The notes under the pieces were generated by a model, which had not been told where the DNA came from, ran no database searches, and saw only the letters and a list, made by a program, of their open reading frames with translations. Source: Candidatus Desulfofervidaceae bacterium (GTDB lineage Bacteria > Desulfobacterota > Desulfofervidia > Desulfofervidales > Desulfofervidaceae). From it: a stretch of 64,000 nucleotides of DNA. The DNA is taken from assembly GCA_027064585.1 (NCBI GenBank), contig JAMOPI010000033.1, positions 1 through 64,000 of the forward strand, in the 5' to 3' direction. Of this stretch, positions 18,691 to 64,000 are shown piece by piece. Positions within the stretch are counted from its first letter, which is position 1; each line of letters starts with the position of its first letter. The position numbers and the translations under genes were made by a program.

Positions 18691-18721
18691 CACTCAACCC
18701 CCTCAATGTTTTAACAAGTCT

Positions 18722-34527: not shown

Positions 34528-34572
34528 CACTCAACCCCCCTTGCAAAGCTAAAAAGAAAAAAACAAAAAAAA

Positions 34573-39883: not shown

Positions 39884-39894
39884 GGGAGTAGATG

Positions 39895-41817
39895 ATGCCA
39901 AAACGTCATGTTTATTTGAAAATGACACCATTAGAAGAGGCAAGGCGTATTTTTTTTACGGCCTTTGATTTTAGAGATTATCTAAAGACCGAGTGTGTGC
40001 CCACGACCGAGGCCTTAGGAAGGGTAACGGCCAGGCCCATCTTTACCCGTTTTTCTTCTCCCAATTTTCACTCGGCGGCCATGGATGGTTATGCGGTAGA
40101 GGCAAGCGTTACTTTTGAGGCATCTTTAGAACATCCCAAGGAATTAAAAGTAGGCAAAGAGGCCTTTCCTATAAACACTGGCCATCCCTTACCAGATAAT
40201 ACTAATGCGGTAATTATGATTGAAGACGTGGTAGAAGAAGGGGATAAAATCATCATCCGTAAGGCAGTTTATCCCTGGCAAAATGTGCGCAAGGTAGGCG
40301 AAGATATCGTTGCCACTGAACTTATTTTGCCTCCTTGCCATCAAATCACCCCTTATGACATTGGCGCCCTTTTAGAGGGCGGTATTTTTGAGATAGAAGT
40401 CAAGCAGCGGCCCAAAGTGGTGATTATTCCCACGGGTAATGAAATTGTTCCTATTGAAAAGGTAGACAAAGAAGGACCTAAAAAAGGCGAGGTTATTGAG
40501 TCCAATTCATGGATGTTACGGGCCTTATTAACCAGGGTGGGGGCTATATGCGAAAAGTGGCCAGTGGTGCCAGATGAATATGATTTATTAAAAGAAACAA
40601 TCGCCAAGGCCATAGATAGCGATGCCCATCTCATTATTGTCCTGGCTGGATCCTCAGCTGGTAGCAAGGATTACACCGCCTCGGCCCTGGAAGAACTGGG
40701 TGAAGTCCTGGTGCATGGTGTCACCATTATGCCAGGGAAACCCACAATTTTAGCTAAGGTGAAAAATAAACCCATTATTGGCAATCCTGGCTATCCAGTG
40801 TCTTCTGTTATTTCCTTTGAACAGTTTGCCCTACCTCTTCTTTCGCGTATGCTGGGCATTGTTTATGAAAAAAGGCCAAGAATAAAGGTCTTTCCTGCCC
40901 GGGCCTTGCCTTCAAAACTGGGTATTGAAGAATTTTTACGGGTAAAGCTTGGTAAAGTAGGGAAAAAGGTAATTGCTACATCTCTGCCACGGGCGGCGGG
41001 TTCTATTACCACTCTCACCAAGGCGCATGGAGTTATTCGCATCCCGGCCCAAAAAGAAGGCATTGGGGAAGATGAGCCGGTAGAGGCTGAACTCCTCGTG
41101 CCAGAGGAGGAAATTTTAAATACCATTGTCATTATTGGTAGCCATGATTTAACCATTGACTTACTTGCTTCGGAGCTAAAGAAGGTAAATCCATTTTTAA
41201 ATATCTCTGCCAGTAATGTTGGCAGCCTTGGTGGTTTAATGGCCATAAAAAAGGGAAAGGCACACTTAGCCGGTTCGCACCTTTTTGATCCAGAAACCGG
41301 TATTTACAACCTGACCTACATTGACCGTTATTTAAAGGATGTGCCCGTAAAAGTTGTAAATCTGGTCATCAGACATCAAGGCCTAATCGTCCCCAAAGGT
41401 AATCCCAAGGACATTAAAGGCATTGAAGACTTAACCCGTCCAGACATTACCATGGTCAACCGCCAGCGTGGGGCGGGAACGCGTATTTTGCTTGATTATA
41501 AGCTTAAACAGTTAGGTATTGATCCTAGTCAGATCAAAGGCTATGACCATGAGGAGTTTTCACACATGGCTGTAGCTGTAGATGTACTGAGTGGGCGAGC
41601 CGATGTAGGACTTGGCATCTATGCGGCAGCTAGGGCCCTTGGACTTGATTTTATTCCCATTGCTACTGAAGAATATGACCTTGTTATCCCAGAACAATTC
41701 TGGCATACAGAAAAGATTCAAACGATTTTAGAATTGATAAATTCTTCGGACTTTAAGCAGGCCATAGAAAAGATGGGAGGATACGAAACCACTAAGACTG
41801 GCACCATTAAGCGATGA
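39895..41817 (+). CDS. MoeA fused to a C-terminal periplasmic-binding-like domain
   Basis: This ~640-residue protein has an N-terminal MoeA domain (residues 1 to about 410) with FHSAAMDGYAVEASV, IIPTGNEIVPIEK, LAGSSAGSKDYTA and GNPGYPVSSVISFE. A C-terminal type 2 binding-protein fold (about 415-640) has SHDLTIDLLASELKK, NRQRGAGTRILLDYKLK and the terminal VIPEQFW. This is the known MoeA/PBP-like fusion family, in which the second domain (PF12727) resembles molybdate- and LysR-type ligand-binding domains. There is no signal peptide, so any ligand would be sensed inside the cell. ATG codons occur at 39892 and 39895; GGGAG spacing favours the second. It follows the HEPN gene by 11 bases, and its stop overlaps the smc start. 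Confidence 0.9.
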   Translation: MPKRHVYLKMTPLEEARRIFFTAFDFRDYLKTECVPTTEALGRVTARPIFTRFSSPNFHSAAMDGYAVEASVTFEASLEHPKELKVGKEAFPINTGHPLPDNTNAVIMIEDVVEEGDKIIIRKAVYPWQNVRKVGEDIVATELILPPCHQITPYDIGALLEGGIFEIEVKQRPKVVIIPTGNEIVPIEKVDKEGPKKGEVIESNSWMLRALLTRVGAICEKWPVVPDEYDLLKETIAKAIDSDAHLIIVLAGSSAGSKDYTASALEELGEVLVHGVTIMPGKPTILAKVKNKPIIGNPGYPVSSVISFEQFALPLLSRMLGIVYEKRPRIKVFPARALPSKLGIEEFLRVKLGKVGKKVIATSLPRAAGSITTLTKAHGVIRIPAQKEGIGEDEPVEAELLVPEEEILNTIVIIGSHDLTIDLLASELKKVNPFLNISASNVGSLGGLMAIKKGKAHLAGSHLFDPETGIYNLTYIDRYLKDVPVKVVNLVIRHQGLIVPKGNPKDIKGIEDLTRPDITMVNRQRGAGTRILLDYKLKQLGIDPSQIKGYDHEEFSHMAVAVDVLSGRADVGLGIYAAARALGLDFIPIATEEYDLVIPEQFWHTEKIQTILELINSSDFKQAIEKMGGYETTKTGTIKR

Positions 41818-48851: not shown

Positions 48852-50684
48852 TTATTTAGCACAAGATTTTTTTATCTTCTCAACTTCTTCTATTACTTGT
48901 CTTATTTCTTCTTCCTCTGGATGTTTTTCTAAGTATCTCTTGTAAACTTCATAAGCATCTTCTACCTTTCCAAGCCCTATCATGATTTGCCCACAGTTCC
49001 AGATAATGTCTCTGTTATCAGGGGCAAGCTCCACTGCTTTTGTTATGTGATACAGTGCCTTTTCTATATCCTTTTTTTGCCAGTAGATAAAGGCAAGGGT
49101 ATTGTGAGTAAGAGCATGAGACATATTAAGCTTTAAAACTTCTTTAAATCGTTCCAGTGCCCTTTCCGTTTGGCCTTGTTGTAAAAGACTCGTTCCTTCT
49201 TGGAAGAGCAAATTAACTGTTGAGCTTTCCACCAATTGAAAGAGCTTAACTCCGTTTAGAGGCATATTATTTTTAATACTTTCTTCGCAAAGTTGCTTGA
49301 AATAACTAACTTTCAGCAAATCATCCTTACGATAAATGTGAAACGCAGGGTAATACGTATCTACAAATAGCTGAAATCCAAGTGAAACTGATCTTATGCA
49401 AAAGTGCCTATCTTCACCTATAAGACTTATGTTATAAAGAGGGGAAAAATTTACCTTTTTTTTCATTGCTTTTTGAGAAAGCAAGGTGCATGCCCCTAAT
49501 CCCCCTACTTCATAAGTACCTGGCTGAAGGAGCAAGAGATAAATAGCTTCTTTAAGCCGATTTTGTTTATCTTGGGAAGTTATGCTTTCTCTTCTTAACC
49601 GTTTATATAAAGTATAATCATCCATAAACCAGATTTGGGGGAGAGGAGAAGTATCAGGATACCATTTAGTCCAAAAAATATTTGAAATAATGTCCTTTTT
49701 TCTTCTTATTAATCGCTTTAAAGTATATGGATGCAGAATCAAATCTGAATCAACTAAAAAGAGATAATCATAGCCTTTTTTAAAGGCATAAGAGATAATT
49801 TTATTTTTAAACGCTGCTACTCTCCAAATAGTTGTTTCTTTCCAGCTATGATAATTTTCACCGCGTTTATAAGGATTTAAAACGGCAATTTGCCAAATGA
49901 TAGTGGATGGGTGTTTATTTTTAAAATCTAACAATAAGGTTGAGGAGGTTTGATTTTCATTATTGTCAATAAATAAAAAGTCTACTTGAAGTCCAGTTAT
50001 GTCTAATGCCGAAAGAGAAACAAGAAATTCTCTTAATATCTCTGGCTCTTGCCTTACAGGAGAAGCTATTAAGACCTTAGGATTTGCAGATAAGGGTTTT
50101 AAAGGAAACTTTTTGTCTAAAATGGCGACAAATTGGACGCCATCCATACTGACATTGGTAGTAAAATCTTTATGCACGGAAAAGCCCTTTTGGGTAAAAA
50201 ATGACTCTTTAAAGCAAAAGACCTGTTTTTCTGAAGGTTCTTGTTCTGCCCGCACTAAAATAAGAACATATCTCTTAGAGACTTTTATCAATTCTTCTAA
50301 GACCTTCTCAGGCTCATGAAGATGCTCAAGTATATTTGAACACACAACCAGATCAAATCTTTTTTTAGTCTCTTTAGAAAGATCAAAGATGTCTGCGACA
50401 AAAAAGTTTGATCTTAAATAAGGAAACTTCTGCTGGCATTTTTTTATTATCTCTTTAGAAGAATCACATCCATATACTTTGGCAAATGGAAAGTGGATAG
50501 TAAGCAGATTAACCATCTCGCCAGTAGCACATCCTACATCTAAGATGGAAATAGGTGAGGTGGGGAGGAAATAGATGTTTTTAATTACAATTTCAGCCAA
50601 ACGCTGCGTTTGCTGGAGCCCGCCTTTGTGTTCCCAGTCTTTATCAAATCTTGCATCCCAGTAAACCTTTGAGTTAATTTCCAT
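48852..50684 (-). CDS. Fusion protein: SAM methyltransferase, glycosyltransferase, TPR tail
   Basis: This 610-residue soluble protein has three parts. Residues 45-150 form a class I methyltransferase with SAM motif ILDVGCATG (47-55) and VCSNILEHLHEPEKVLEEL. Residues 202-450 look like a GT-A glycosyltransferase, with LIASPVRQEPEILREFL, DFLFIDNNEN, the metal-binding VDSDLILHP (311-319) and SLIGEDRHFC (420-429). Residues 490-600 are TPR repeats with AFIYWQKKDIEKALYHITKA and ELAPDNRDIIWNCGQIM. The TPR tail closely resembles that of the 1110-residue protein at 53265, although the DNA has diverged. It is the last gene of the glycan island, 72 bases downstream of the epimerase gene. The substrate is unknown. 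Confidence 0.75.
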   Translation of the reverse strand: MEINSKVYWDARFDKDWEHKGGLQQTQRLAEIVIKNIYFLPTSPISILDVGCATGEMVNLLTIHFPFAKVYGCDSSKEIIKKCQQKFPYLRSNFFVADIFDLSKETKKRFDLVVCSNILEHLHEPEKVLEELIKVSKRYVLILVRAEQEPSEKQVFCFKESFFTQKGFSVHKDFTTNVSMDGVQFVAILDKKFPLKPLSANPKVLIASPVRQEPEILREFLVSLSALDITGLQVDFLFIDNNENQTSSTLLLDFKNKHPSTIIWQIAVLNPYKRGENYHSWKETTIWRVAAFKNKIISYAFKKGYDYLFLVDSDLILHPYTLKRLIRRKKDIISNIFWTKWYPDTSPLPQIWFMDDYTLYKRLRRESITSQDKQNRLKEAIYLLLLQPGTYEVGGLGACTLLSQKAMKKKVNFSPLYNISLIGEDRHFCIRSVSLGFQLFVDTYYPAFHIYRKDDLLKVSYFKQLCEESIKNNMPLNGVKLFQLVESSTVNLLFQEGTSLLQQGQTERALERFKEVLKLNMSHALTHNTLAFIYWQKKDIEKALYHITKAVELAPDNRDIIWNCGQIMIGLGKVEDAYEVYKRYLEKHPEEEEIRQVIEEVEKIKKSCAK

Positions 50685-50756: not shown

Positions 50757-51881
50757 CTATATTTTATAAAAATCTCTTTTTATAATATTGAAAATCCGTT
50801 CACTGGCATTACCATCTCCATATATATATGAAACCCTTGCCATTTTTTTATAAACACTTTTATCGGAGATTAAAAGAGAGGCCTCTCTAAAGATTAGATT
50901 TTCATCTGTCCCTATAAGTTTGGCTATGCCTGCTTTTATACCTTCAGGCCTTTCGGTTTCTTTTCTTAAAACTAAGATGGGCTTTCCTAAAATAGGAGCT
51001 TCTTCTTGAATACCTCCTGAATCTGTAAGAATGAAATAGCTTTTTTTCATAAACCAGACAAGAACAGGATAGGACACAGGAGGCAATAGATGAATATGAG
51101 GAATGTCTTTTAAAATTGTTTTTACCGTTTCTTCTACCTGAGGATTGAGATGAACAGGATAAATAATCTCTATCTCCTCCGCAAAAGTCAAGGCAAGTTT
51201 TTTTAAGGCCAAACATATCTGTCTAAGCGGTTTACCAAAACTCTCCCGCCGATGGGCAGTAACCAGAAGGAGTTTTTTGGAAAAATCAATAAAGTTAAAC
51301 TCTTTCTGATACTTATCCTCTAATTGATTGTGCTCAATTATCTTTAAAGCCTCTAATAATGCATCAACCACTGTATTACCCACCACAAAAATTCTTTCTT
51401 TTTCCATTCCTTCCCTTAAAAGATTTTCCCTTGCTCCCTTGGTGGGACAAAAGTGATAGTCAGCTAAATGAGAAATAAGCACCCTGTTTATTTCTTCAGG
51501 ATAAGGGGCAAACTTGTTAAAACTGCGAAGACCTGCCTCTATGTGAGCTACAGGTATCTTGTGATAAAAACAACTAAGAGTAGCCGCAAAGGCAGAAGTA
51601 GTATCACCCTGGACAAATATCAATTCAGGTTTTGATTCAGACAAAACCCATTCAATTCCCTGAATTACCTTACAGGTAACCTGGCTAAGGGTCTGTTTTT
51701 TTTCCATTATCTTAAGATCATAATCAACTGGAATTTTAAAAAAATCCAACACTTGTTTTAGCATCTCCATGTGTTGGGAAGTAATACAGACCTTTATCTC
51801 AAAGGTATTTTGAAATCTTCTTATTAGAGGAGCCAGTTTAATCGCCTCAGGGCGGGTGCCAAAAATAAATAGTAAGCTCAT
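50757..51881 (-). CDS. wecB: UDP-N-acetylglucosamine 2-epimerase (non-hydrolysing, WecB-like)
   Basis: This 374-residue GT-B-fold epimerase converts UDP-GlcNAc to UDP-ManNAc or acts on a related sugar. It starts LFIFGTRPEAIKLAPLIRRF and contains FVQGDTTSAFAATL, VAHIEAGLRSFNKFAPYPEE, LVTAHRRESFGKPL and the terminal TDSGGIQEEAPILGKP. These are the standard non-hydrolysing epimerase motifs; a hydrolysing NeuC role is less likely but cannot be excluded. The start overlaps the preceding stop by four bases. It could provide a ManNAc-type precursor in the same island as NeuB. Confidence 0.88.
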   Translation of the reverse strand: MSLLFIFGTRPEAIKLAPLIRRFQNTFEIKVCITSQHMEMLKQVLDFFKIPVDYDLKIMEKKQTLSQVTCKVIQGIEWVLSESKPELIFVQGDTTSAFAATLSCFYHKIPVAHIEAGLRSFNKFAPYPEEINRVLISHLADYHFCPTKGARENLLREGMEKERIFVVGNTVVDALLEALKIIEHNQLEDKYQKEFNFIDFSKKLLLVTAHRRESFGKPLRQICLALKKLALTFAEEIEIIYPVHLNPQVEETVKTILKDIPHIHLLPPVSYPVLVWFMKKSYFILTDSGGIQEEAPILGKPILVLRKETERPEGIKAGIAKLIGTDENLIFREASLLISDKSVYKKMARVSYIYGDGNASERIFNIIKRDFYKI

Positions 51882-53224
51882 TCCGAATACTTCTTTCCTA
51901 ATAATTCAAGCACAGTTTTAGCCCGATGTTTTAAAGTATGACTTTCTATCGCCGTTTTATAAAGTTCTTCTGAAATTGCTTTTCTTTCGTCTTCATGATG
52001 TAAATAATAATCTATTTTTTTTAGCAACTCGTCAACTGTCTTAAAAGTAAACTCTTTGTAACAGGTAGGAAAAAGGTCTTTAAATATCTCTTTATAATCA
52101 GTTAAAAAGAAGGCTTTAGAAAAGATAAACATAAAACTTCTTTCCTGCGTGCTTGTATCAAACACTATGCGGTGAATATTTAAATTAATAGCTGTCATAC
52201 CAAAAATAATAGGCAAAAGTAACCAGTGGGCAGGTCCCCTATATTTTACATTAGGGTGTTCTTTAAATTCCTTAGGGACACAAGTTCCAAATAAAATAAG
52301 GCGGTGGTGGTTTATTATTTCTTTTAAAATAAAATACCGCATATTTTCAAAATTAGCTCCTATCTGATTACAAATTATTTCTAATTTTTCCCAACCTTGA
52401 CTTGGCCACACCGTAAACACTTCTCTCATAAGTTGGTGAATAAAATTGTAACCAAAGTCTTGTTTTTTCAAGATTAAATGTTTGTTTACTATTTCTGTTA
52501 GCTCTTTTGGTAAATGGCAAACTGGTTTATGGAAGTTGCCAACAAAACTTATAGGATAACTTTTAGGCATATTTTCAGTAGGATAACTAAATTCTGCCGG
52601 GGCATAATGAGGAAGAAAGTAAACATTTTTTATTCCAAAATTTTTAAAAAAGCTACACCATTGCTTTTCGTGGCAAAGAATTATAAATAGCTCATTATAA
52701 GCTCTCATTACTTCTAAAGTTTTCAATGAGGTTAAACTTCCATCCTTCCATAAGGGCAATTCTCCAATAAGCACCACGATAGGACACCCAATTTTAAAAA
52801 AATCAACCCGAGGAATAACACCTCTTTTTATAAATTCTTCTTGATTTGCTACCCAATTGTGAGCGTCAAAAATAAAATCAGGATTGATGGTTGTTAAAAT
52901 ATTTTGAAAATCAGAAATACGTTTATTTGCCATATCTATAAGATAAACACTATAGCCCAATTCATAAAAATTTTTAGCCCACATAAGAGAAAAAATGTTA
53001 TGCGCAGGTGCATAGTCAAACCTTTGGGCAGCCTCAAAAATGATTATTTTACCCAATTCTTTCGGATGAATAAGGGGGGTAATCTTTAAATTTTCTTTGG
53101 ATGCCAGATTGAACACAATATCGTTTTTATTAGAGATATATAATTTGTTAAAGATTTCTACAAATTTATCTATCGGCATCTCAAACCGTTTGTTTAAACT
53201 ATCAATAAATATAACCTTTCTCAT
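51878..53224 (-). CDS. CgeB-like GT-B glycosyltransferase, paralogue B
   Basis: This 448-residue protein is clearly paralogous to the 424-residue protein at 56602. Both share a central block with (G)ELPLWK(D/E)GS, IKNVYFLPHYAP, YPISFVGNF, ENMRYFI and NLHR(I/V)V. The C-terminal block runs from QERSFMFIFSKAFFLTDYKE to HTLKHRAKTVLELL. The C-terminal part resembles the Glyco_trans_1_2 / CgeB family, where a nucleotide-sugar-binding loop with FLTDY precedes a helical end. No membrane segments or signal peptide are visible. It sits between the 1110-residue transferase and the epimerase. The donor and acceptor are unknown. Confidence 0.6.
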   Translation of the reverse strand: MRKVIFIDSLNKRFEMPIDKFVEIFNKLYISNKNDIVFNLASKENLKITPLIHPKELGKIIIFEAAQRFDYAPAHNIFSLMWAKNFYELGYSVYLIDMANKRISDFQNILTTINPDFIFDAHNWVANQEEFIKRGVIPRVDFFKIGCPIVVLIGELPLWKDGSLTSLKTLEVMRAYNELFIILCHEKQWCSFFKNFGIKNVYFLPHYAPAEFSYPTENMPKSYPISFVGNFHKPVCHLPKELTEIVNKHLILKKQDFGYNFIHQLMREVFTVWPSQGWEKLEIICNQIGANFENMRYFILKEIINHHRLILFGTCVPKEFKEHPNVKYRGPAHWLLLPIIFGMTAINLNIHRIVFDTSTQERSFMFIFSKAFFLTDYKEIFKDLFPTCYKEFTFKTVDELLKKIDYYLHHEDERKAISEELYKTAIESHTLKHRAKTVLELLGKKYSE

Positions 53225-53264: not shown

Positions 53265-56200
53265 CTACAACATTTCTTTTTCAATCTCTTCAATTATTTT
53301 TTTTATTTCTATTTCTTGAGGATGTTTTTGTAAATATCTTTTATAAATGTCATAGGCATCCTTCGTTCGTCCAAGGGATAGCATAATTTGACCACAATTC
53401 CAAATGATATCTCTATCATCTGGTGCAAGTTCTAGGGCCTTAGTTATGTGATAGAGCGCCTTTTCTACTTCTTTTTTATGCCAAAAAATGAAGGCAAGGG
53501 CATTATGAGCAGGGGCATAAGATGAATTTGATGTTAAGAGATGATCAAGCATCTGAATTGCCTTTTGCTCTTCGCCTTTTTGAAAATGTGCCTCAGCATT
53601 TTCCATAATATTTTTATAATAAAGATCTTTAGCCTCTTCTAGAAAGGCATTAAGATATTCCTGTGAAGTTGGATTAAGGATTAAAAACACTTCTAACACC
53701 TTTAATCTCTCTTTAGGAGGAAGGGTTTTCCAAGAAATAGGTGGATTTTCATGTTTAAGCTCTTCCACTAATGCATCTATTTTATCAAATGATATCTTTG
53801 CCTTGCCTGTCTGGTTGTAAACAAAATCTTCTACTCCTTTAAGATAAGCATAAACTAAAGATAATTTATGGTTAATCATAAAATATGTATTTTTAACTCT
53901 TTCAAAACTTGCTAAAAAAACCTGAGGAAAATGCTTATAGTTAAAAAGTAGTTCATTTCTTACCGCATAGTATATACTAAAAGGAGTTTTAAGCCATCTA
54001 CCTGCAGTTTCTCCCCCTTTATGATATACCTTAGAATATGGATTATACCACACCTCCCAGCCAGTTTTGATGGCTCTAATAACGATATCATTATCATCAT
54101 AATAGAAAAAGTAGTCTTCTTCTAAGAACCCAATTTTTTCTATAAGTTCTTTTTTTAACAAAAGGCTTGTTCCTGAGATAAAATTTACTGGTTTGGGAAA
54201 GTCTTTTGTATCAGGAACTCCTTCTCCATAAGCCACAAATCTTTCTCCCCAAAATTGGACTTTTTGGGGATGGGTATAGCAATAAATTTTACTACCTACA
54301 ATGCCAACCTTTTCATCTTTTTCAGCCAATTTAACAAGCTCTACCAGCGCATCTTTATCTATTTTAGTATCTGGATTTAACAGCCATATATAATCTACCT
54401 TGTTTTTAAGCGCTATTTTAATGCCAATATTAGCTCCACCTGCAAAACCAAGATTCGTTTGGTTGGTAATAAAAACCACTGTCTTCGGTTTAAAACAAAA
54501 CTCCTCTTGGTCTGTATATACATCAATCCCCATTTTACGGAGATGTTCTAAAATAATCTCAATAGAATTATCCTTTGACGCATTGTCAACAAGAATTATT
54601 TGAAAATTCTTATAGGCAGCACTAAAGATACTTTGAAGACAATTGATCGTATCTAGCGGGCATTGATAGTTGACAACAACAATGGCCACTTTTTTGTTTG
54701 GAATGTGAGTATCAAGTGGGGTGCATACCTTCTTTAAAATCAAAGGAAGCTGAGAATAGGTTACTTTTTGGGGTCTTAAGTCAGGTGGAATTTCTAGAGA
54801 TAGGGACTTAAGTTGCTCTTCATCCTCAATTAAATAATGTCCCATACAGATATGAGGTGGGATCAAGCAAGATTTTGTGATCTCATTTAAAGAAGAACAT
54901 TTGAATAAGACAGGCATCTCTATCGTCCAATCAAGTTTAGATGTATATGACTTCCAGTATAAATTTTGTTTTATGCTCCATATAGATATGTCAGGATACT
55001 GAGAAATAAAAGCAAGAGCCTTTTTTAACTCCTCTGGTTCATAGATGATATTTTTGTTGCCAAGCAGATAGTAATCATATCCCTGGATGCTTATTTCTCT
55101 TATGTTTATTTTTCTTATGATTTCTGAAGCTCTATTTACATCATTAGATGGAAAAGTAAAAATTTTTATCTTCTTTTCTAAATCGGGGAAAGAGTAAAGT
55201 CTTTGTAAAAGCTCAAATTTGGAAGAAGTAAGAAGAAAAATTTTATCAACTGGTTTATAACTTGAAAAAATGGAAAGCGGTAAGAGAAAAGGCCTTTGGG
55301 ATATGTGAACATGAGGTAAAAGATATAGGGCGGCAACTTTAGCGTTTTTGTCCTGTCTCGGTAGAAAAAGAGAACCTTCTTCCTTCCAGGAGAAAAATGC
55401 CAGTCCTCCCTTTTTCCCTTTGCTTAATTCACCCTCCACGGTAGCCTCTACAACTCTCTTACACTCCTCCCACTGGGTATGATAGTGAGTATTTGAACCA
55501 ATCAAATCAGGATGAATAATAATAGGTACAACATCACAGATCTTTGCCGTTAATAACACCGTTGACCAAAGACTTACTACATATTTAACTGGTAATTGAA
55601 ATAGAATATCTTCTGTAATCAAAGAGGGTGAAAATAAAAAAACCTTTTCTTTAGGGAATTTTTTTAAGACTTTTTCATATTTTTCAATTTTTTCGGCAGG
55701 ATGTGGTTTTATCCCTATAGTTAAATCTTTCTCTAAGAAGAACTTAATTACCTGTTGTCTAAATTCGTCTGCCTTTAAGGAAGAGGTGTAGTTGTATTCT
55801 TCCAAGGGAGAAGTAGAGAAAAGGACATCTACAGGAGTGAAATTTAAAGGATTTTTTTCTGCCCTTTTTTGAAGAAGTTTTTTGAAAGAATTTGTTATAT
55901 GGGAATTTAACTTAAATTTAGTCCCTTCTCTATCCAATAGGTATCTTTTGGTAATATAAAAGAAATTATCCTGGTTTAATTGCTGAATTTGAGGCGATAA
56001 GACCGAAAAGATTGAATTTACCGCCTGCCAAAAGGTAAAAAGGCCTTTATATTGATTATCTTGAAGGTCTTTTTTATACACTCCTTCTGTCGCTTTGGCC
56101 GAAAGATAACTACCTCCACCTTCGTCATAGGCAACAAATATAGGCTGATAAAGCTTCCAGAGTTTTACATCAAATAACCCGATACATAAATTTAAAGCAG

Positions 56201-56597
56201 AAAGATGAGACAAAGGCGAAAGAAAATATACCGACTTAAGAGGATAGCGAGTGATTTTTTTTATTTCTAACAGGCTGGTTTGGGCATTTTTTATAATACT
56301 CTGGAACAGCCTTTCATCATGTCTTTCAAATGCATGAGGCCGAGCTACGATAAAATTAATGTTTGGATGGTCTTTAAATAGAAAATAAAAGTTTTTTACC
56401 ATTATTCCGTGTTTAAGGTGAGGAATAATAATAATTTCTCCCTGAACATCTGGATTAACTTCTGCTAGTTCGTTCACAAATGCTTCTACATTTAGGGCAT
56501 GAAAGGGAGAAATTAAAAGAGCAATGAAATCTAATGGTTGTTGTGTTAACCGATGCCTTAAATACTCAAAGATGTCTATCGTTCTGATCTCTTCCAT
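53265..56597 (-). CDS. Giant fusion: sialyltransferase-like domain, GT2 domain, TPR tail
   Basis: This 1110-residue protein has at least four regions. Residues 20-380 resemble bacterial GT-B sialyl/polysialyltransferases. They carry FVAYDEGGGS with the D-E-G motif at 158-160, GIKPHP with H-P at 299-300 and SLWST at 342-346, the three motif types essential in that group. Residues 440-600 are of unclear type. Residues 636-900 form a GT2 rhamnosyltransferase-like domain with VAIVVVNYQCPLDT, LVDNASKDNS, NLGFAGGANIGI, LLNPDTKID and YDDNDIVIRAI. Residues 995-1100 are TPR repeats nearly the same as those of the 610-residue protein. No membrane segment is evident. It is flanked by two CgeB-like paralogues. 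It probably adds two successive sugars; identities are unknown. Confidence 0.7.
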   Translation of the reverse strand: MEEIRTIDIFEYLRHRLTQQPLDFIALLISPFHALNVEAFVNELAEVNPDVQGEIIIIPHLKHGIMVKNFYFLFKDHPNINFIVARPHAFERHDERLFQSIIKNAQTSLLEIKKITRYPLKSVYFLSPLSHLSALNLCIGLFDVKLWKLYQPIFVAYDEGGGSYLSAKATEGVYKKDLQDNQYKGLFTFWQAVNSIFSVLSPQIQQLNQDNFFYITKRYLLDREGTKFKLNSHITNSFKKLLQKRAEKNPLNFTPVDVLFSTSPLEEYNYTSSLKADEFRQQVIKFFLEKDLTIGIKPHPAEKIEKYEKVLKKFPKEKVFLFSPSLITEDILFQLPVKYVVSLWSTVLLTAKICDVVPIIIHPDLIGSNTHYHTQWEECKRVVEATVEGELSKGKKGGLAFFSWKEEGSLFLPRQDKNAKVAALYLLPHVHISQRPFLLPLSIFSSYKPVDKIFLLTSSKFELLQRLYSFPDLEKKIKIFTFPSNDVNRASEIIRKINIREISIQGYDYYLLGNKNIIYEPEELKKALAFISQYPDISIWSIKQNLYWKSYTSKLDWTIEMPVLFKCSSLNEITKSCLIPPHICMGHYLIEDEEQLKSLSLEIPPDLRPQKVTYSQLPLILKKVCTPLDTHIPNKKVAIVVVNYQCPLDTINCLQSIFSAAYKNFQIILVDNASKDNSIEIILEHLRKMGIDVYTDQEEFCFKPKTVVFITNQTNLGFAGGANIGIKIALKNKVDYIWLLNPDTKIDKDALVELVKLAEKDEKVGIVGSKIYCYTHPQKVQFWGERFVAYGEGVPDTKDFPKPVNFISGTSLLLKKELIEKIGFLEEDYFFYYDDNDIVIRAIKTGWEVWYNPYSKVYHKGGETAGRWLKTPFSIYYAVRNELLFNYKHFPQVFLASFERVKNTYFMINHKLSLVYAYLKGVEDFVYNQTGKAKISFDKIDALVEELKHENPPISWKTLPPKERLKVLEVFLILNPTSQEYLNAFLEEAKDLYYKNIMENAEAHFQKGEEQKAIQMLDHLLTSNSSYAPAHNALAFIFWHKKEVEKALYHITKALELAPDDRDIIWNCGQIMLSLGRTKDAYDIYKRYLQKHPQEIEIKKIIEEIEKEML

Positions 56598-56601
56598 CTG
56601 A

Positions 56602-57876
56602 TTATTCCTCTCTGTAAGGTAAATTTAATACTTCTAAAATTTCCATCGCTCTATGCCGCAGTGTATGCTTTGAAATGGCTGTTTGAAATAGATATTCAGC
56701 TATTTCCATCCTTTCTCTGTTATGATTTAGGTAATATTCTATTTTGTCTTGGAGTTCTTTTAAATTTTTAAAACAGATTTCTTTATACACTTCAGGGAAA
56801 TAGGTTTTAAAGAGCTCTTTATAATCAGTAAGAAAAAAGGCCTTAGAAAAGATTAACATAAATGTTCTTTCTTGAGTAGAATAGTCATAAACTACACGAT
56901 GAAGATTGAGATTAATTACAGACATGCCGAAGATTACTGGCAAAGACAACCACATTGCCGGCCCTTTATAGTCTACATTAGGATGATATGTAATGTCCCT
57001 AGGGACATTACAACCAAAGAGTGTTAGTTTATATTTCTGAATTAAATTTGAAATAATAAAATATCGCATATTTTCGCACCTACTGCCTAAACAGGAGTAA
57101 ATTTCAGCTATTTTCTGCCAGGAAAGAGAGGGGGCGAGTTCATATAACAAGTTTTTGATCATAGGATAATCAAAAGAAGATTTTTTGTGTTCTAAATGTG
57201 TTTCTATAAAAGCATTAATTTGTGGTACATCTTCTGGTTTGGTAAAGTTACCTACAAAAGAGATAGGATATATTTTAGGTAAAGAGTGAGTAGGATAGCA
57301 AATTTCGTGAGGAGCAAAGTGAGGAATAAAATATACATTTTTAATACCTAATTGTTTACAAATTTCCAGCCAGCTCTTCTCTATACAAAAAAGAAAGAAA
57401 TTTTCTTTTTTACACCTTTCTAAATCTTTTAGAGATATACTTCCTTCTTTCCATAAAGGGATTTCTGTAATTGTTATTACTAACGGACAATGTTTATATT
57501 GCAACCCAAGAGGTGCTCTAAAAATCATACTGGGAGAAGAGCGATTTAAAAGCTCATATAAATTGTTCCATTCCTGCTGATTTTCAGGGGGAGGCAGAAG
57601 GTCCACATTATAACCTAGCTCATAAAATGCCTTTGCCCACATAAAAGGAAATACAGAATACGCAGGGGCAAAGGCAAAATTTATTTTTGAGCTAAACACA
57701 ATAATGGAACCTAGCGGATCAGGATGAGGAAAGTGAAAGTTATATTTGGGCATAGGAAGTTGAAGGACAATATTTTGGTTAGCAGATAAGGTCTGGTGTA
57801 AAAATTTTATAAATTTGTCTAGTTCAATTTCAAACTTATTTTGTTGACAATCAACAATAACCAGTCTAGGTGACAT
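56602..57876 (-). CDS. CgeB-like GT-B glycosyltransferase, paralogue A
   Basis: This 424-residue protein is paralogous to that at 51878. Shared features include an N-terminal half with APAYSVFPFMWAKAFYELGYNVDLL, then ITEIPLWKEGSISLKDLE, IKNVYFIPHFAPHE, YPISFVGNFTKPEDV and ENMRYFII. The C-terminal half has DYSTQERTFMLIFSKAFFLTDYKELF. The fold is probably GT-B with a group-1-like C-terminal half. It lies four bases upstream of the 1110-residue gene, so the two are surely co-transcribed. A weak GAGGAAGG lies upstream of the start, rather far away. The acceptor is unknown. Confidence 0.6.
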   Translation of the reverse strand: MSPRLVIVDCQQNKFEIELDKFIKFLHQTLSANQNIVLQLPMPKYNFHFPHPDPLGSIIVFSSKINFAFAPAYSVFPFMWAKAFYELGYNVDLLPPPENQQEWNNLYELLNRSSPSMIFRAPLGLQYKHCPLVITITEIPLWKEGSISLKDLERCKKENFFLFCIEKSWLEICKQLGIKNVYFIPHFAPHEICYPTHSLPKIYPISFVGNFTKPEDVPQINAFIETHLEHKKSSFDYPMIKNLLYELAPSLSWQKIAEIYSCLGSRCENMRYFIISNLIQKYKLTLFGCNVPRDITYHPNVDYKGPAMWLSLPVIFGMSVINLNLHRVVYDYSTQERTFMLIFSKAFFLTDYKELFKTYFPEVYKEICFKNLKELQDKIEYYLNHNRERMEIAEYLFQTAISKHTLRHRAMEILEVLNLPYREE

Positions 57877-58052: not shown

Positions 58053-59000
58053 TTAATCTTTTTGTAATACTACGAAATTAAAAGCTCCATATCCACCTTT
58101 GGTTTCCTCTAACTCTATCTTAAACAATTCCATAACCAAAGGAAATAATTCTTCACACCATTTTACCTTAACTTCAAATCTCTTTTTAGGAGATAGAGAA
58201 TTTGCCATTTCAATAAGATAAGGGCTAATAGGTCTCAGTCCAACATCCCAAAAAGTTAAGGTAGTTTTACCCAAATAGGTCTCATATTTTTTAATTTTTA
58301 AATTTGTATTCTTTTCAATCTCTTTTTCAAACTCATCTAAATCTTTTACCCACATTAACGTTTCTGCCCTATTTCGATTTATCAACTTCCAAAATTCAGA
58401 TATTTTAGATAACTTATAACTTCTACAAAATTCTAAAAATTTCTTATTAGGAAAAACTATTACTATTTTCCCTTTTCCAACGAGATTTTGTTCCCAATTA
58501 TTCAAAACTCCAATAGGATCTTTCAACCAATATAATATATTAGAATAAACTAAATCAATTTTTTTATCTTGAAAATCAAGAGGATTATTAGCATCTGCTT
58601 TTTTCACTTCCTCAATAAATCCTAATTGATAAGCTTGTTTCAGCAAAGTTTCCTTAATGTCTATTGCTAGAACTATTTTTTTGTCAGGGGTAGAATTTAC
58701 ATAATAGGAAATTTTAACATCATCTTTTACTACATCATAAATATCTTTACCCTTCCAAAATCCTTCAGTATTAACATTATAATACCAATCATATTCTGGT
58801 TTAAATCTCCCTCCCAAAGTCATGAATGTAAAATACCCATTTCCTACTCCTACCTCAAGAATTCTATTTCCCAATAAAAGTTCTTCCCCAATAAGGATAG
58901 ACGCTCTGGTATTCCAAACAACTTTTTCCATCCTCAACCATTCCATATATAAAAATTCTTTTAATCTATTTTCTACTTTCTCTTCTTCTCTAACCCTCAT
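58053..59000 (-). CDS. Class I SAM-dependent methyltransferase
   Basis: This 315-residue protein has the SAM-binding motif ILEVGVGNGYF (47-57) and an acidic motif II region KKIVLAIDIKETLLKQA. The motif IV/post-IV region is KKIDLVYSNILYWLKDP. The N-terminal charged helix and the C-terminal extension differ from ubiquinone-type methyltransferases. It lies 22 bases after the radical SAM gene. A sugar or amino-acid N- or O-methylation in the glycan pathway is plausible but not shown. Confidence 0.65.
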   Translation of the reverse strand: MRVREEEKVENRLKEFLYMEWLRMEKVVWNTRASILIGEELLLGNRILEVGVGNGYFTFMTLGGRFKPEYDWYYNVNTEGFWKGKDIYDVVKDDVKISYYVNSTPDKKIVLAIDIKETLLKQAYQLGFIEEVKKADANNPLDFQDKKIDLVYSNILYWLKDPIGVLNNWEQNLVGKGKIVIVFPNKKFLEFCRSYKLSKISEFWKLINRNRAETLMWVKDLDEFEKEIEKNTNLKIKKYETYLGKTTLTFWDVGLRPISPYLIEMANSLSPKKRFEVKVKWCEELFPLVMELFKIELEETKGGYGAFNFVVLQKD

Positions 59001-59022: not shown

Positions 59023-60141
59023 CTATTCTCCTATAACTTGTTTCCTTCCTACATAATTTCTTACAAGAATCTCCCGCCCATTTACAATTGCTTTTTCAGA
59101 AACCTCTGTTTTGCGTGGATAATAACATTTTCTACATACCTCTATCTCTTTAAATCCTTGCGGCTTTTTGTGAATATCTCTAACTCTATTTATCTTTTCT
59201 CCGTGCCAAATGTCATACACGCTTTCTTTATTTACATCTCCAATTATATATTCTCCCTCTTCATCATTTGCACAAAGCAATACTTTACCATCGCTACCAA
59301 TAGTAAGCCGTTGATAAATTTGCGGGCAAGAAAAATTCTCTTCATACACAATTTTTTTGTCTTTTCTTAAATAATCTATCAAAGGGTTAAATGCCACCAA
59401 GTCAGTTAGTGGGGCAAATGTATTGTAATATTCTGCAGGGTTTTCCCTTATAGCAGGCCAAATAGTTTGGACCTTTATTACAGGTTTTATTAAATTATGC
59501 TTTTCACGGTATTCTTTTATCTTTTTTAGATTTTCAAGAATCCAGTTAAATTTCAAAGGTTTTCTAATACTTTCATACACTTTACCTATGCCATCTATTG
59601 AAATGCTTATCCAATCTATACCTGCATCTACCATTTTTTTAAAAAAATCTAAAGTTAATTTACTTCCATTTGTAAGGGTTGAAATTTCTTGTATACCTTT
59701 TTCTTTGGCATATTTTATGGCGTTTAAAAAATTAGGATGAAGGGTTGACTCTCCTCTCAAGCTTAGTCTTATGGCGTAAACCTTTCCCGCAATTTCATCT
59801 ATTATTTTTTTAAAAAGTCCAAGGTCCATAAATTGTCTTTTTACTTTCTTTTTAAACTCTTCCGTAATGGTATAACACATAGGACAAGAAAGATTACAGG
59901 CAGATGAGAGTTCTATATCTACCAGAAGAGGATATTCTCTGACTATTTTTTTCTTTGGAAGCTCTATCCAAAGTCTTCGGTATTCTTTATATTCTTCCTC
60001 CCACCCATGGGCAAGTTTTTCAAAAAAGGCCTTTTCTCTCTCTGGCGTATCAAGATTAAAATGACCTTTGCTTATGGGAATAGTAGTATTCCCTTCTTTG
60101 ATTTCTGTATTAAAAAAACTCTGCGAAAGAGGAATAGACAT
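59023..60141 (-). CDS. Radical SAM protein with SPASM-like C-terminus
   Basis: This 372-residue enzyme binds a [4Fe-4S] cluster through Cys82, Cys86 and Cys89 in SACNLSCPMCY (C-x3-C-x2-C). It has a GGE-equivalent LSLRGESTLHP and the ISISIDGIGKVYESIRKPL strand. The C-terminal part holds FSCPQIYQRLTIGSDGKVLLCANDE and EVCRKCYYPR, which matches auxiliary-cluster (SPASM/twitch) proteins. Related enzymes dehydrogenate, epimerise or deaminate sugars and peptides. Its position between the FemAB-like and methyltransferase genes suggests action on a glycan intermediate. The substrate is unknown. Confidence 0.8.
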   Translation of the reverse strand: MSIPLSQSFFNTEIKEGNTTIPISKGHFNLDTPEREKAFFEKLAHGWEEEYKEYRRLWIELPKKKIVREYPLLVDIELSSACNLSCPMCYTITEEFKKKVKRQFMDLGLFKKIIDEIAGKVYAIRLSLRGESTLHPNFLNAIKYAKEKGIQEISTLTNGSKLTLDFFKKMVDAGIDWISISIDGIGKVYESIRKPLKFNWILENLKKIKEYREKHNLIKPVIKVQTIWPAIRENPAEYYNTFAPLTDLVAFNPLIDYLRKDKKIVYEENFSCPQIYQRLTIGSDGKVLLCANDEEGEYIIGDVNKESVYDIWHGEKINRVRDIHKKPQGFKEIEVCRKCYYPRKTEVSEKAIVNGREILVRNYVGRKQVIGE

Positions 60142-60159: not shown

Positions 60160-61158
60160 TTAAGTTTTATCTTTAGTTTTATCTTTTCTCACCTGAAAAT
60201 ATTTCTTTAAATCCCCTCCAAACGAAAGTTTAAACCAGCCTCTCTGTGGACTGTTCACACCTTCCATATTTACCCGGCAAATTCCTTTCTCCGAAAGAAT
60301 TCTGAATGTTTCCCATATACAAAAGGTAGCATCATGTCTCGTCATTTTATCCCGTAAACCTGCGGCAAAGAGATAAATACTTTCATTTAAAAGGTAGCTA
60401 AATACGGTTATATAGCTCAGCTCTCCTTTATAATTTTTTACTCCTGTCATAATACCTATGTTTTTATTTATGATGTTTTTTATGACATCACAAAGTCTAG
60501 TTAAAAAAGACTCCTTCACTTCTACTCCTTGTTCCTGCATCATTTGGGCATAGTAATCAGTAAAAAGAGAGGTATTTTTACTTTCTAATAATACAATTTG
60601 AGAACCTTTTTTTATGGAATTTTTAACATCTGCTTGTCTTTTATTTTCCATATTTTTAAAAAGTTCCATTTTTTCATAAGACTTTTTTAGAAAGAATTCT
60701 GATATATCAATAAAGCTAGTATATTTTAAGATTAAATTAAATTTGTCCTTTGGATTAGAAGAATGGTAATTATGCCATAAAAAAGGGCGCAAATCTTCAA
60801 AGAATGGGCTTAAACTCATTTCTATTTTGCTGAATTGCTTGTCAAATTCTTCTATGACAAATTCTGTAATCTCAAATTCTTCAAACCTTTTTCTTACAGT
60901 TTTTTTATCAGGAACCGGCAAGAACATAATTCCATTATAAATAACAAGGTCATCTATTTCACATCCACTTTCATCCTCCGTCAATATTACAGAAACACCT
61001 GCTCTTATCTGGTCTCCCTTAAGAACAAAATAATTTTTATATTTCCTACCTACAGCATCCAGATAGCGGATATCACAAAAAACTGTAAATTGAGGAGACT
61101 CTGACATTATTTGATTCCATTTTTCTCTATCTGCCTCAACTAATTTATATTTCGGCAT
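60160..61158 (-). CDS. FemAB/GNAT-type aminoacyl- or acyltransferase-like protein
   Basis: This 332-residue protein resembles the double-GNAT FemAB family, which moves amino acids from aminoacyl-tRNA onto peptidoglycan precursors, and related acyl-CoA N-acyltransferases. The C-terminal half has the characteristic run ESIYLFAAGLRDKMTRHDATF, then WETFRILSEKGICRVNMEG, and ends GWFKLSFGGDLKKYFQV, matching the K-x-x-F-G-G-x-L terminus of the family. Its start shares one base with the stop of the DUF4910 gene. In this island an aminoacyl or acyl group could be put on a sugar amino group. The lysine-rich end KDKTKDKT is unremarkable. Confidence 0.65.
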   Translation of the reverse strand: MPKYKLVEADREKWNQIMSESPQFTVFCDIRYLDAVGRKYKNYFVLKGDQIRAGVSVILTEDESGCEIDDLVIYNGIMFLPVPDKKTVRKRFEEFEITEFVIEEFDKQFSKIEMSLSPFFEDLRPFLWHNYHSSNPKDKFNLILKYTSFIDISEFFLKKSYEKMELFKNMENKRQADVKNSIKKGSQIVLLESKNTSLFTDYYAQMMQEQGVEVKESFLTRLCDVIKNIINKNIGIMTGVKNYKGELSYITVFSYLLNESIYLFAAGLRDKMTRHDATFCIWETFRILSEKGICRVNMEGVNSPQRGWFKLSFGGDLKKYFQVRKDKTKDKT

Positions 61159-62486
61159 TATTTCTCCTCCTTGCGAAGAAGGAGTCCCTTGTTTTCTAAT
61201 TCTACAGCGATTTCATAAATATCTTGTAAATTGATCTTAAGCTTTTTGCTTATATTATACAAGCTTGTGTTTCCGTCACAATAAAACATCAAATAAAGAG
61301 CTATTTCATGTCTTTTCAACCTACTTTCCGGTAAAAATGCCCCTCCTAATTTTGGATAAAGATCATATTTACTTAAAAACACCTCACAGTGTTTTTTAGT
61401 TGCTTCATAAAAAATATTTTTATCAAGATAATTTAAAATAAGATGAAGATATAGATTTAAAGACTGATTTATAAACTCAGCCCTTACAAAGTTTAAATCA
61501 TCCAAAGAAGTATGATAATAGGGATATTCATAATATTTATCTTTTGTAATGGTAATACAGTTGATTCTAAAAGCTTGAGAAGAATACTGCCTTTCATCAC
61601 TTCCAGCTAAAGAAAAAGGATATTTTATAAAATCATTTATGCCCAAATCAGCAAAGACATCCTCCACCATTTGGTTAATTTCATCTTTTTCATCAAAAGA
61701 CATTTTGTACCCAAACTTTCCTGGACCTCCACAGGTTGTAATAACTAAACCCATATCTATGTTCTTCATCTCTTTTTCATTATGGGCACAGTAACTTATA
61801 GCACCTATCGTTTCTGGAACAAAGATAATTCTATACGAATAATTTAGTCTTTTTTGGTGTTTAAGCAGCTCTCTTGCGATAAAAACAGTAGTAATTATGC
61901 CACTTAAGTTATCGTTTGCCAGATTAGGATGGCAGATGTATGTGGAGATAAGATACTCCTTTTTACTTTTTCCTTTTATAAGGACTTCTCCTATACTTAA
62001 AGAGCCTTTTTTAAAAGTTGCATCTATAAAAACCTCATAATTCTCATCTTCTCTGAAGTATTTTTTAAGATGGTTATAACTCAAGCAAAAACCCCAATTT
62101 TGAGTGTAATAAAAAGTTCTATATGGAATAGCTTCTTTTAAATTAGGTAAGTAATAAAGGTGTTTTTGAAGTTCAGAAAAAGATAAAATTTTGTGAACAG
62201 GCTGAGAATAAAACACAACATGAAGGGGATTATTTTTATAGTCAAGGATGACTTCTCCCTTACTGTTTTTTATCCATGCCTCTTTTATTTCCCATTCAGG
62301 TGGAATAACCCAGTCATAAACGTTTTCCCCTGAAGGATATTCAACTATATTTAATTCTGGCACTAACCCTTGTAAAATTTTTAATGTTTTACGCGTTCCT
62401 TCACCCGTAATACTCCTAGGAATGGGAAACAATTTTTTTAAGAGTTCATTTATTTCTTTGGTATAGTCCACCTTTAACAGCTTCAT
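61158..62486 (-). CDS. DUF4910-family zinc-peptidase-like protein with winged-helix C-terminus
   Basis: This 442-residue protein of the DUF4910 family has a fold like M28 zinc aminopeptidases and a C-terminal winged-helix-like domain (about 370-442, TSLYNISKKLKINLQDI). Metal-ligand-type motifs are STYICHPNLANDNLSG, FVPETIGAISYCAHNE and AGSDERQYSSQAFRI. The N-terminus has FPIPRSITGEGTRKTLKIL, conserved in the family. Such genes recur in nonulosonate and other surface-glycan clusters, but their reaction is unknown. The start overlaps the neuB stop by four bases. Confidence 0.75.
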   Translation of the reverse strand: MKLLKVDYTKEINELLKKLFPIPRSITGEGTRKTLKILQGLVPELNIVEYPSGENVYDWVIPPEWEIKEAWIKNSKGEVILDYKNNPLHVVFYSQPVHKILSFSELQKHLYYLPNLKEAIPYRTFYYTQNWGFCLSYNHLKKYFREDENYEVFIDATFKKGSLSIGEVLIKGKSKKEYLISTYICHPNLANDNLSGIITTVFIARELLKHQKRLNYSYRIIFVPETIGAISYCAHNEKEMKNIDMGLVITTCGGPGKFGYKMSFDEKDEINQMVEDVFADLGINDFIKYPFSLAGSDERQYSSQAFRINCITITKDKYYEYPYYHTSLDDLNFVRAEFINQSLNLYLHLILNYLDKNIFYEATKKHCEVFLSKYDLYPKLGGAFLPESRLKRHEIALYLMFYCDGNTSLYNISKKLKINLQDIYEIAVELENKGLLLRKEEK

Positions 62487-63538
62487 TCTTCAAGCATTTC
62501 CCATTTTAGGATTTCATCTTCTCCTATATCCCTTCTTGCCCTTTTTCCTATTACCTCTTCTAAAAATTTTGGACTTATGCCGTAGGCTGGTCGTTTAAAA
62601 ATTAAATCTTCTTTTTGAATAACCTTCCCCTTAGGAATAAAGTTTTTAGCTACAATACTTCTTCTGGCATTTTTACGCGAAATTTCCTCAGAAGAAAGAG
62701 GCTGTTTTTTGAATTGACCAATAATATTAAAGATTCTCTCTAAATTGTGTTTAAACAATTTTAAGTCTCCTTTATCCATGGCGTGATAATGGTCATTACC
62801 TGGCAGTGTTTTATCAAAAGTAAAATGTTTTTCTATCATTTTGGCTCCAAGCAACACGGCTATCTCTAGAACCTTCATATCCTTTGGCAGAGTATGGTCT
62901 GAATATCCTATAATTTTATCTGGGAATTTTCTCTTTAAATCTAAAATCATTCCAAGATTAGCATCTTCTTCTTTAGTGGGATAATTTAACACACAGTGAA
63001 GAAGAGCAAGCGGATTTCCATATTTTTCTATCCATGATACTGCTTCTTCTATTTCCCATAAATAAGAGGCTCCTGTAGAGAGAATAATAGGCTTACCAAA
63101 TTGGCAGATATATTCTATAAAAGGTTTGTTAGTAATATCCGCAGACGCAATTTTAAAAGCAGGCATCAAATCATTTAAAAACTTTGCACTCTCAAAATCA
63201 AAGGGCGTGCTTAAGAACTCTATTCCTACTTTATCACAGTATTTTTTCAATTCCTCGTATTCTTTTTTCCAAAATTTATCGTATTTTTTAAAAAGTTCAT
63301 ATTGACTTGTAGTTGGCTCTTTAGTAGTATCCCAATATGCAGGTGAATATTTAGAAGCAAGTGTTTCTGCTTTGTAACTTTGAAATTTAATCGCGTCTGC
63401 CCCTGCTTCTTTTGCCTCGTCTATCAGCCTTTTGGCTAATTCCATACTACCTTCGTGATTTACACCTGCCTCTGCTATAATGTAAGGAAATGACAAAAAA
63501 GAAGATAATTTACCTTTAAAAAGTTTCTGTATTTTCAT
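62483..63538 (-). CDS. neuB: N-acetylneuraminate/legionaminate/pseudaminate synthase (NeuB family)
   Basis: This 351-residue enzyme condenses phosphoenolpyruvate with a six-carbon amino sugar to give a nine-carbon nonulosonic acid. The TIM barrel contains IIAEAGVNHEGSMELAKRL, GADAIKFQSYKAETL, FLSTPFDFESAKFL, IASADITNKPFI, LSTGASYLWEIEEAV, GYSDHT and the metal-binding GAKMIEKHFTFDKTLPGNDH. A C-terminal SAF/antifreeze-like domain (about 290-351) starts RRSIVAKNFIPKG. Whether the product is sialic, legionaminic or pseudaminic acid cannot be read from the sequence. The adjacent SpsG/PseG-like gene favours a 2,4-diacetamido sugar, i.e. the latter two. Confidence 0.9.
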   Translation of the reverse strand: MKIQKLFKGKLSSFLSFPYIIAEAGVNHEGSMELAKRLIDEAKEAGADAIKFQSYKAETLASKYSPAYWDTTKEPTTSQYELFKKYDKFWKKEYEELKKYCDKVGIEFLSTPFDFESAKFLNDLMPAFKIASADITNKPFIEYICQFGKPIILSTGASYLWEIEEAVSWIEKYGNPLALLHCVLNYPTKEEDANLGMILDLKRKFPDKIIGYSDHTLPKDMKVLEIAVLLGAKMIEKHFTFDKTLPGNDHYHAMDKGDLKLFKHNLERIFNIIGQFKKQPLSSEEISRKNARRSIVAKNFIPKGKVIQKEDLIFKRPAYGISPKFLEEVIGKRARRDIGEDEILKWEMLEE

Positions 63539-63547
63539 TTTTACTCC

Positions 63548-64000
63548 TCAAAATTTTATGTCATTGCCTTGGTCTTTCCAGTCTTCATATTTATCTAAAA
63601 TTAACCTAGAAACTCTATATAGTCCCTTTCTTATCTCTTTAGCTACTTCTTGAAGTTCTTTATTCAATTGCTGGCGGAGACTGTAATTTTCAACTAATTT
63701 AATAATAGTATTTATAATACATTGATCACTTACTTCAGAAGCTATGCCTAAATATCTAATTGCTGGATGGACAGCTGCAAAGGTATGCCCTGCCTCTCTA
63801 ATATTTTGTCCAATTACAATCAAAGGAGTTCCTAACGCAACCACTTCATACACCATCCGTCCATTAGCGATTATAGCTATATCTGCTTCAAATATATAAG
63901 GTGCCATCCAAGTAACATCAGTCACTACTTTTATACATTTACTTAACGTTGACTTTTCTATTAAATTTAAAAGTCTTTTTTTTCTCTCTTCACTATAACC
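63548..64000 (-). CDS. SpsG/PseG-like nucleotide-sugar hydrolase, C-terminal part
   Basis: The frame is open to the window edge and continues outside; about 150 C-terminal residues are visible. The sequence runs from GYSEERKKRLLNLIEK at the edge through MAPYIFEADIAIIANG, RMVYEVVALGTPLIVIGQN and REAGHTFAAVHPAIRYLG. This GT-B C-terminal domain with an S/NGR-x-x-YE-x-x-ALG-x-P pattern matches PseG/SpsG-like proteins. These remove UDP from a diacetamido sugar before NeuB acts, and are often fused behind a CMP-nonulosonate cytidylyltransferase. A GTG at 63925 is an internal codon, not a start. The gene precedes neuB by nine bases. Confidence 0.7.
   Translation of the reverse strand, partial: GYSEERKKRLLNLIEKSTLSKCIKVVTDVTWMAPYIFEADIAIIANGRMVYEVVALGTPLIVIGQNIREAGHTFAAVHPAIRYLGIASEVSDQCIINTIIKLVENYSLRQQLNKELQEVAKEIRKGLYRVSRLILDKYEDWKDQGNDIKF

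Follow-up and report, generated by a model that had tools for sequence, protein, structure and literature searches.

The gene at positions 53265-56597 (minus strand) of a 64,000-nucleotide window from a Candidatus Desulfofervidaceae bacterium (contig JAMOPI010000033.1, positions 1 to 64,000; "the window" always means this whole stretch) encodes a chain of 1110 residues. A PF07388-type transferase, an orphan segment, a glycosyltransferase family 2 (GT2) domain and a tetratricopeptide repeat (TPR) tail follow each other in this order. From the domain homologies, the conserved motif columns, the composition of the gene island, the reuse of the tail and, in relatives, the linkage of this tail with flagellin loci we infer that the protein may be a bifunctional nonulosonate/hexose transferase that is docked through its TPR tail onto a protein acceptor, probably flagellin. 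We rate the chances of this reading, in which donor, acceptor, activities and docking are all predicted, as even. The enzyme does not represent a new type, as chains with two activities and nonulosonate transferases docked by TPR are each already known. What is new is how the parts are combined, and that one and the same tail recurs on unrelated heads in the vicinity of flagellin. The source is a heat-loving, deep-sea vent bacterium, and its family comprises thermophilic sulfate reducers, among them HotSeep-1, which lives in partnership with methane-oxidising archaea (PMC10553843).

Domain organisation

The region is a single unbroken open reading frame (ORF), and the plus strand is crowded with stops here. 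A preliminary description made from the letters of the DNA had given the coordinates and the length of 1110 residues correctly; the strand is minus. The ATG start lies only 4 bp past the stop of the upstream gene. The GC content at third codon positions (GC3) is even across the gene (0.25-0.30); together with the relatives that share its C-terminus this led us to reject an assembly chimera. The GT2 domain and the TPR tail named in that description turned out to be genuine, and the Pfam matches of PF07388, GT2 and TPR are all above the curated cut-offs. The features of the gene are as follows:

53265-56597, minus strand: whole ORF with PF07388-type transferase, orphan segment, GT2 and TPR, 1110 residues (Pfam)
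55539-56525, minus strand: PF07388 (A-2_8-polyST) domain, residues 25-353, predicted GT-B fold, cytidine monophosphate (CMP)-nonulosonate transferase-like (Pfam, Foldseek)
56118-56126, minus strand: D158-E159-G160, D/E-D/E-G motif (alignment)
55695-55709, minus strand: K297-P-H299-P300-A301, HP motif (alignment with 23 homologues)
55611-55613, minus strand: E329, near-invariant family Glu (alignment, MhPST spacing)
55560-55565, minus strand: S345-T346, S-S/T motif (alignment, MhPST spacing)
54696-55310, minus strand: intervening segment without recognisable relatives, residues 430-634 (Pfam, PDB, 395 genomes)
54132-54683, minus strand: GT2 domain, residues 639-822 (Pfam)
53277-53603, minus strand: TPR tail with the DxRDIIWNCGQIM signature, residues 999-1107 (Pfam, signature)

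The PF07388 domain

The hidden Markov model search that had been proposed as a check gave a clear match: the polysialyltransferase family PF07388 was found at residues 25-353 with E=2.3e-15 and 57.4 bits against a cut-off of 23.3, covering profile positions 2-305 of 316. For residues 1-425 alone we obtained E=4.4e-16. We then aligned the head with 23 PF07388 members, nearly all of them taken from 339 genomes in the phylum to which a Sericytochromatia record belongs. Several weak matches in this phylum (L033-L037) covered only part of the profile or scored near the cut-off and were not used as relatives. Position 159 is D or E in all 23 homologues and position 160 is G in 22 of them. No variation occurs at K297, H299 and P300 and almost none at E329 and S345; at position 346, 18 of the 23 have Ser or Thr. 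The DEG (158-160), HP (299-300) and S345-T346 motifs from which a sialyltransferase-like domain had been proposed are thus present, in register with the motif columns of the family and conserved in homologues.

The D/E-D/E-G motif is known from bacterial sialyltransferases (PMC5517516, PMC2169525). In the crystal structure of MhPST the role of base is proposed for E153; the phosphate is held by H291 together with S339-T340, and the ribose of CMP by E323 (PMC5517516). Residues 159, 299, 329 and 345-346 of the head nearly match this spacing (153/291/323/339-340), as had been claimed for bacterial sialyl- and polysialyltransferases in general, and E159 would correspond to E153.

Directly after the HP motif, 22 of the 23 homologues have R and the remaining one has K. 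The equivalent K293 of MhPST is strictly conserved among polysialyltransferases and contacts the polyanionic acceptor, and the mutant K293A is nearly inactive (PMC5517516). The 1110-residue protein has Ala301 instead of the basic residue that polymerising GT38 polysialyltransferases proper conserve. This substitution, which the preliminary description had missed, argues against polysialylation, and with Ala301 in place of the acceptor-binding Lys/Arg we predict transfer to a non-polysialic acceptor.

For the fold we ran AlphaFold on residues 1-425 with an input alignment that consisted of PF07388 family members. The predicted local distance difference test (pLDDT) averaged 59.8, with values mostly of 80-96 in the second Rossmann half. 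In Foldseek the best match of this model was MhPST (5wcn, E=6.6e-8, prob 1.00, template modelling (TM) score ~0.4), followed by GT-B enzymes. A GT-B fold of the head is therefore likely as far as the model goes: the matches are of the GT-B type throughout, at a low mean pLDDT and TM score. Taken with the profile match, these results bear out the description of the N-terminal domain as sialyltransferase-type.

The Kdo transferase KrkA was also among the structural matches, and the HP motif is conserved in beta-Kdo transferases too (PMC5517516), so that motif and GT-B fold are common to both. The head could then be a CMP-Kdo (3-deoxy-D-manno-oct-2-ulosonic acid) transferase, or one for another CMP-ulosonate, fused to a GT2 domain. 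We consider this very improbable: the head is matched best by PF07388, a profile with DEG and S-T columns, and the island holds NeuB- and NeuA-type genes and no Kdo gene that we could see.

Close relatives of residues 1-630 in genome contigs and viral contigs, and of residues 1-433 in plasmids and 148 phylum genomes, were not found outside the genome itself. A PDB sequence search with the head gave no meaningful match.

The GT2 domain and the intervening segment

The GT2 domain (PF00535) covers residues 639-822 with E=5.5e-18. Its best NCBIfam subfamily is the rhamnosyltransferase TIGR01556, with a score below the cut-off of that model. The domain contains NPDT at 741-744 and, slightly past the end of the Pfam match, DDND at 834-837. 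Residues 440-600 had been described as matching nothing recognisable, which holds for a somewhat longer segment: for residues ~430-634 we found no match in Pfam or PDB and no credible relative in 395 phylum genomes. The best foreign match (E=0.008 in a short stretch) was taken as chance. When residues 1-640 were modelled with AlphaFold, the segment had a pLDDT of about 29-44 and was uninterpretable.

The TPR tail and its link to flagellin loci

The tail spans residues ~999-1107 and is best matched by TPR_19/TPR_2 at 1028-1101 (E=2e-9). Its signature DxRDIIWNCGQIM occurs twice in the genome, both times inside the same gene island. The two tails are 58% identical, and the remainders of the two proteins (1110 and 610 residues) are not alike. 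In the relative G003 the chain is GT4-GT2-TPR, and in G002 the tail sits in a radical SAM-TPR-methyltransferase chain. The syntenic place in G001 is occupied by a sulfotransferase-methyltransferase-GT2-GT2 chain without the tail. In other records we observed the tail on GT9, pyruvyltransferase, GT4 and sulfotransferase chains. A search with a tail profile, made irrespective of flagellin, detected it in 21 of 395 genomes. Judged by these sequences the tail is a shared module placed on unrelated heads, a point that had escaped the preliminary description.

We then viewed 20 tail loci together with flanks of up to 10 kb in both directions, several being shortened by contig ends. Flagellin was found within 10 kb in 6 of the 20, compared to none of the 12 control stretches taken from these genomes; about 5 of the 20 resemble generic TPR proteins, which makes the count a rough one. 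The GT4-GT2-TPR gene of G003 is separated from FliC and FliD by 7 kb, in which nucleotide-sugar genes lie. In G002 the tail cluster lies ~18 kb from FliC-FliD, and a glycosyltransferase with a Maf N-terminal domain stands between. The sole other PF07388-TPR protein that we found belongs to a genome of a different family (G146) and has the order PF07388-TPR-SPASM (L032/L178). The island around it (L178/L179, C3:149001-189000) contains FliC (804 aa), FliD, a LegB above the cut-off, a NeuA-like gene, three NeuB homologues, one of them fused to a xylose-isomerase-like domain, and a GT41-TPR protein. This protein resembles ours in the PF07388 head followed by TPR and in the nonulosonate and flagellin genes of its island. 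It differs in carrying a radical SAM/SPASM part rather than GT2, and the two are not orthologous.

Two further records concern the tail. A chain of 1769 aa (L045:6299-11605) combines an F420 hydrogenase beta-like part, a polysaccharide pyruvyl transferase, GT9, the TPR tail, GT2 and TPR. The contig QMZY01000032.1 (L042), labelled Aenigmatarchaeota, has a TPR tail that shares 52% identity with the bacterial one and is possibly a mis-binned Desulfofervidaceae contig.

The gene island and the putative supply of donor

The island spans 48852-65278 of the contig. All genes are on the minus strand with intergenic gaps of -4 to 176 bp, and the GC content is 29-36% compared to 44-49% in three housekeeping genes of the window. 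Apart from the 1110-residue ORF it contains:

48852-50684, minus strand: methyltransferase, GT2/Anp1-like and TPR, 610 aa (Pfam, tail identity)
50757-51881, minus strand: non-hydrolysing UDP-GlcNAc 2-epimerase, WecB type, above the equivalog cut-off
51878-53224, minus strand: PF13524 glycosyltransferase, 45% identical to its paralogue at 56602-57876
56602-57876, minus strand: PF13524 glycosyltransferase, paralogue of 51878-53224
58053-59000, minus strand: methyltransferase (Pfam)
59023-60141, minus strand: radical SAM/SPASM protein (Pfam)
60160-61158, minus strand: weakly FemAB-like protein (Pfam E=0.003, below cut-off)
61158-62486, minus strand: DUF4910/DUF2172 protein (Pfam)
62483-63538, minus strand: NeuB-family synthase (PF03102, E=6e-79)
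63548-64000, minus strand: C-terminal part of a NeuA/PseF and PseG fusion, 576 aa, extending to 65278 of the contig

The NeuB gene had been noted before as lying ~6 kb upstream in the same orientation; we place it 5.9 kb upstream. Against the equivalog models it scored 350 bits for NnaB and 254 bits for PseI, both below the cut-offs. Directly upstream of it is the NeuA-PseG fusion, which is cut by the window end. With both CMP-nonulosonate genes upstream and co-directional, the suggestion of a plausible donor supply stands. Among five family genomes examined, NeuB and PF07388 were each found only in this one. In the fusion (L024:8548-10278) the PseG-like UDP-sugar hydrolase part has a stretch GLGHIYR, which we take to resemble the PseG motif GxGHxxR.

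No flippase, polymerase or ABC exporter was present among the island genes scanned from the 610-residue TPR enzyme to NeuA, as is expected for cytoplasmic protein glycosylation.

Proposed function and comparison with known systems

We propose that the 1110-residue protein would act as a bifunctional cytoplasmic glycosyltransferase. The NeuB and NeuA-PseG of the island would make a CMP-activated nonulosonic acid, which the N-terminal GT-B head would transfer. E159 would serve as the base, while H299, E329 and S345-T346 would hold the CMP; of these, H299 and S345-T346 would act at the departing phosphate. A further sugar would be added to that glycan by the GT2 head, in either order. The TPR tail is predicted to have no catalytic role. 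It would bind a shared protein acceptor, flagellin being the likeliest, or else partner enzymes, and so let enzymes that differ in their heads but have this tail in common work on one substrate. Tentatively, and with some doubt, we extend this to the tail in general: it may be a small swappable docking tag through which a single protein substrate is served by catalytically unrelated heads (of the nonulosonate transferase, GT2, GT4, sulfotransferase, methyltransferase and radical SAM types) in a modular flagellin-decorating line, with the PF07388 head as its protein-glycan nonulosonate transferase.

The closest experimental precedent for such docking is FlmG of Caulobacter, whose TPR domain binds flagellin and whose GT-B domain uses nonulosonate (PMC7591256). 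Both proteins have TPR and GT-B on one chain and use nonulosonic acid, here by prediction. In FlmG, however, the TPR is N-terminal and larger, there is no GT2, and the GT domain is not known as PF07388. For a FlmG-type system the genome holds both nonulosonate synthesis genes (NeuB, NeuA-PseG) and flagellin (contig C15). The Geobacillus flagellin-glycosylation-island paper does not mention TPR or multi-domain transferases.

Several observations count against the docked flagellin transferase. No flagellin gene was seen in the examined parts of this 81-kb contig; the flagellin of the genome is on another contig, beside a different GT2-TPR gene, and the tail loci of G001 and G004 are not next to flagellin. 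In the island we found no dehydratase/aminotransferase set for a diamino nonulosonate (LegB/LegC, PseB/PseC). The head deviates from further family columns (R24, G30, D121-E122 and P327, the last as P327I), and its model is only partly confident.

The altered near-invariant columns (R301A, P327I, D121-E122, G30) would also fit an enzyme with one inactive head, in effect a GT2 transferase in which the PF07388 part merely binds donor or acceptor. That motifs alone can mislead is illustrated by SpsB of B. subtilis: it shows both DEG and HP, and the transfer of legionaminic acid does not depend on it (PMC7439481). We nevertheless regard an inactive head as improbable, since the residues assigned in MhPST to CMP binding and to the base are kept at matching spacing and, of the five family genomes examined, NeuB co-occurs with the head in this one only. 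MhPST itself (GT38, PDB 5wcn, PMC5517516) is similar in DEG, HP, Glu and S-T at near-matching spacing and in the predicted GT-B fold; it differs in having K293 where we find Ala301, and the head described here is fused to GT2 and TPR.

That no flagellin gene was seen near the island, and that the flagellin gene has a separate GT2-TPR neighbour, can also be read in favour of a bifunctional polysaccharide polymerase. Its heads would alternate nonulosonic acid and hexose on a lipid-linked or capsular chain and the TPR would oligomerise as in TagF-like enzymes. The N. meningitidis W polymerase, which offers the nearest parallel, sits in a capsule locus with export genes; no exporter of a W/Y-type capsule locus is present in the island 48852-65278. 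Like the 1110-residue chain, for which the assignment is by homology, the W enzyme has a hexosyltransferase, a segment of uncharacterised role and a sialyltransferase on one chain of ~120 kDa, but the order is reversed, the hexosyltransferase is GT4 rather than GT2 and TPR is not reported (PMC6048754). TagF-like capsule polymerases with TPR such as Cps1B are likewise multi-domain transferases with a TPR-rich region, which mediates oligomerisation and is dispensable for activity; they differ in their TagF-like phosphotransferase head and in a TPR region of ~400 aa (PMC5974469). Neuraminic acid capsule pathways are also reported in Seep-SRB2, other sulfate-reducing partners of anaerobic methanotrophic (ANME) archaea (PMC10553843). 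We judge a polymerase to be rather unlikely: the island genes scanned include no export, flippase or polymerase gene, and the tail family is linked to flagellin loci and shared with non-polymerase enzymes.

GT2-PF07388 and GT4-PF07388 fusions also exist in the cyanobacterial phylum set (L065, L077, L072, L066; phylum of G395), in opposite order and without the TPR tail; they come from small genomes of 1.8-2.1 Mb. The preliminary description had called a two-sugar, TPR-tethered chain an unusual assembly. The heads, the tail and the donor genes hold up by homology; the unusualness does not, as the W polymerase and these fusions precede it.

If the docked transferase is confirmed, a sialyltransferase superfamily best known from capsules and lipooligosaccharide would gain a link to the glycosylation of proteins among uncultured thermophilic sulfate reducers, and a shared tail could be read as a code for a shared substrate. 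Bifunctional nonulosonate/hexose transferases from a thermophile might also be useful in enzymatic glycan synthesis. Two predictions are testable: the effect of Ala301 on acceptor choice and the binding of the tail to flagellin.

Other features of the window and the genome

At 39892-41817 of the window we observed a MoeA fused to a PBP-like domain (641 aa), with a second MoeA nearby at 37913-39148. Two ORFs of 400 aa lie on the same strand at 17491-18693 and 33328-34530; the second is EF-Tu and the first may be a second copy of it. Elsewhere in the genome (L087:1054-2622, G000:C31) a DegT-family aminotransferase carries an N-terminal extension of ~150 residues that looks PIN-like by eye only, and an ORF of similar length is also present in G001.

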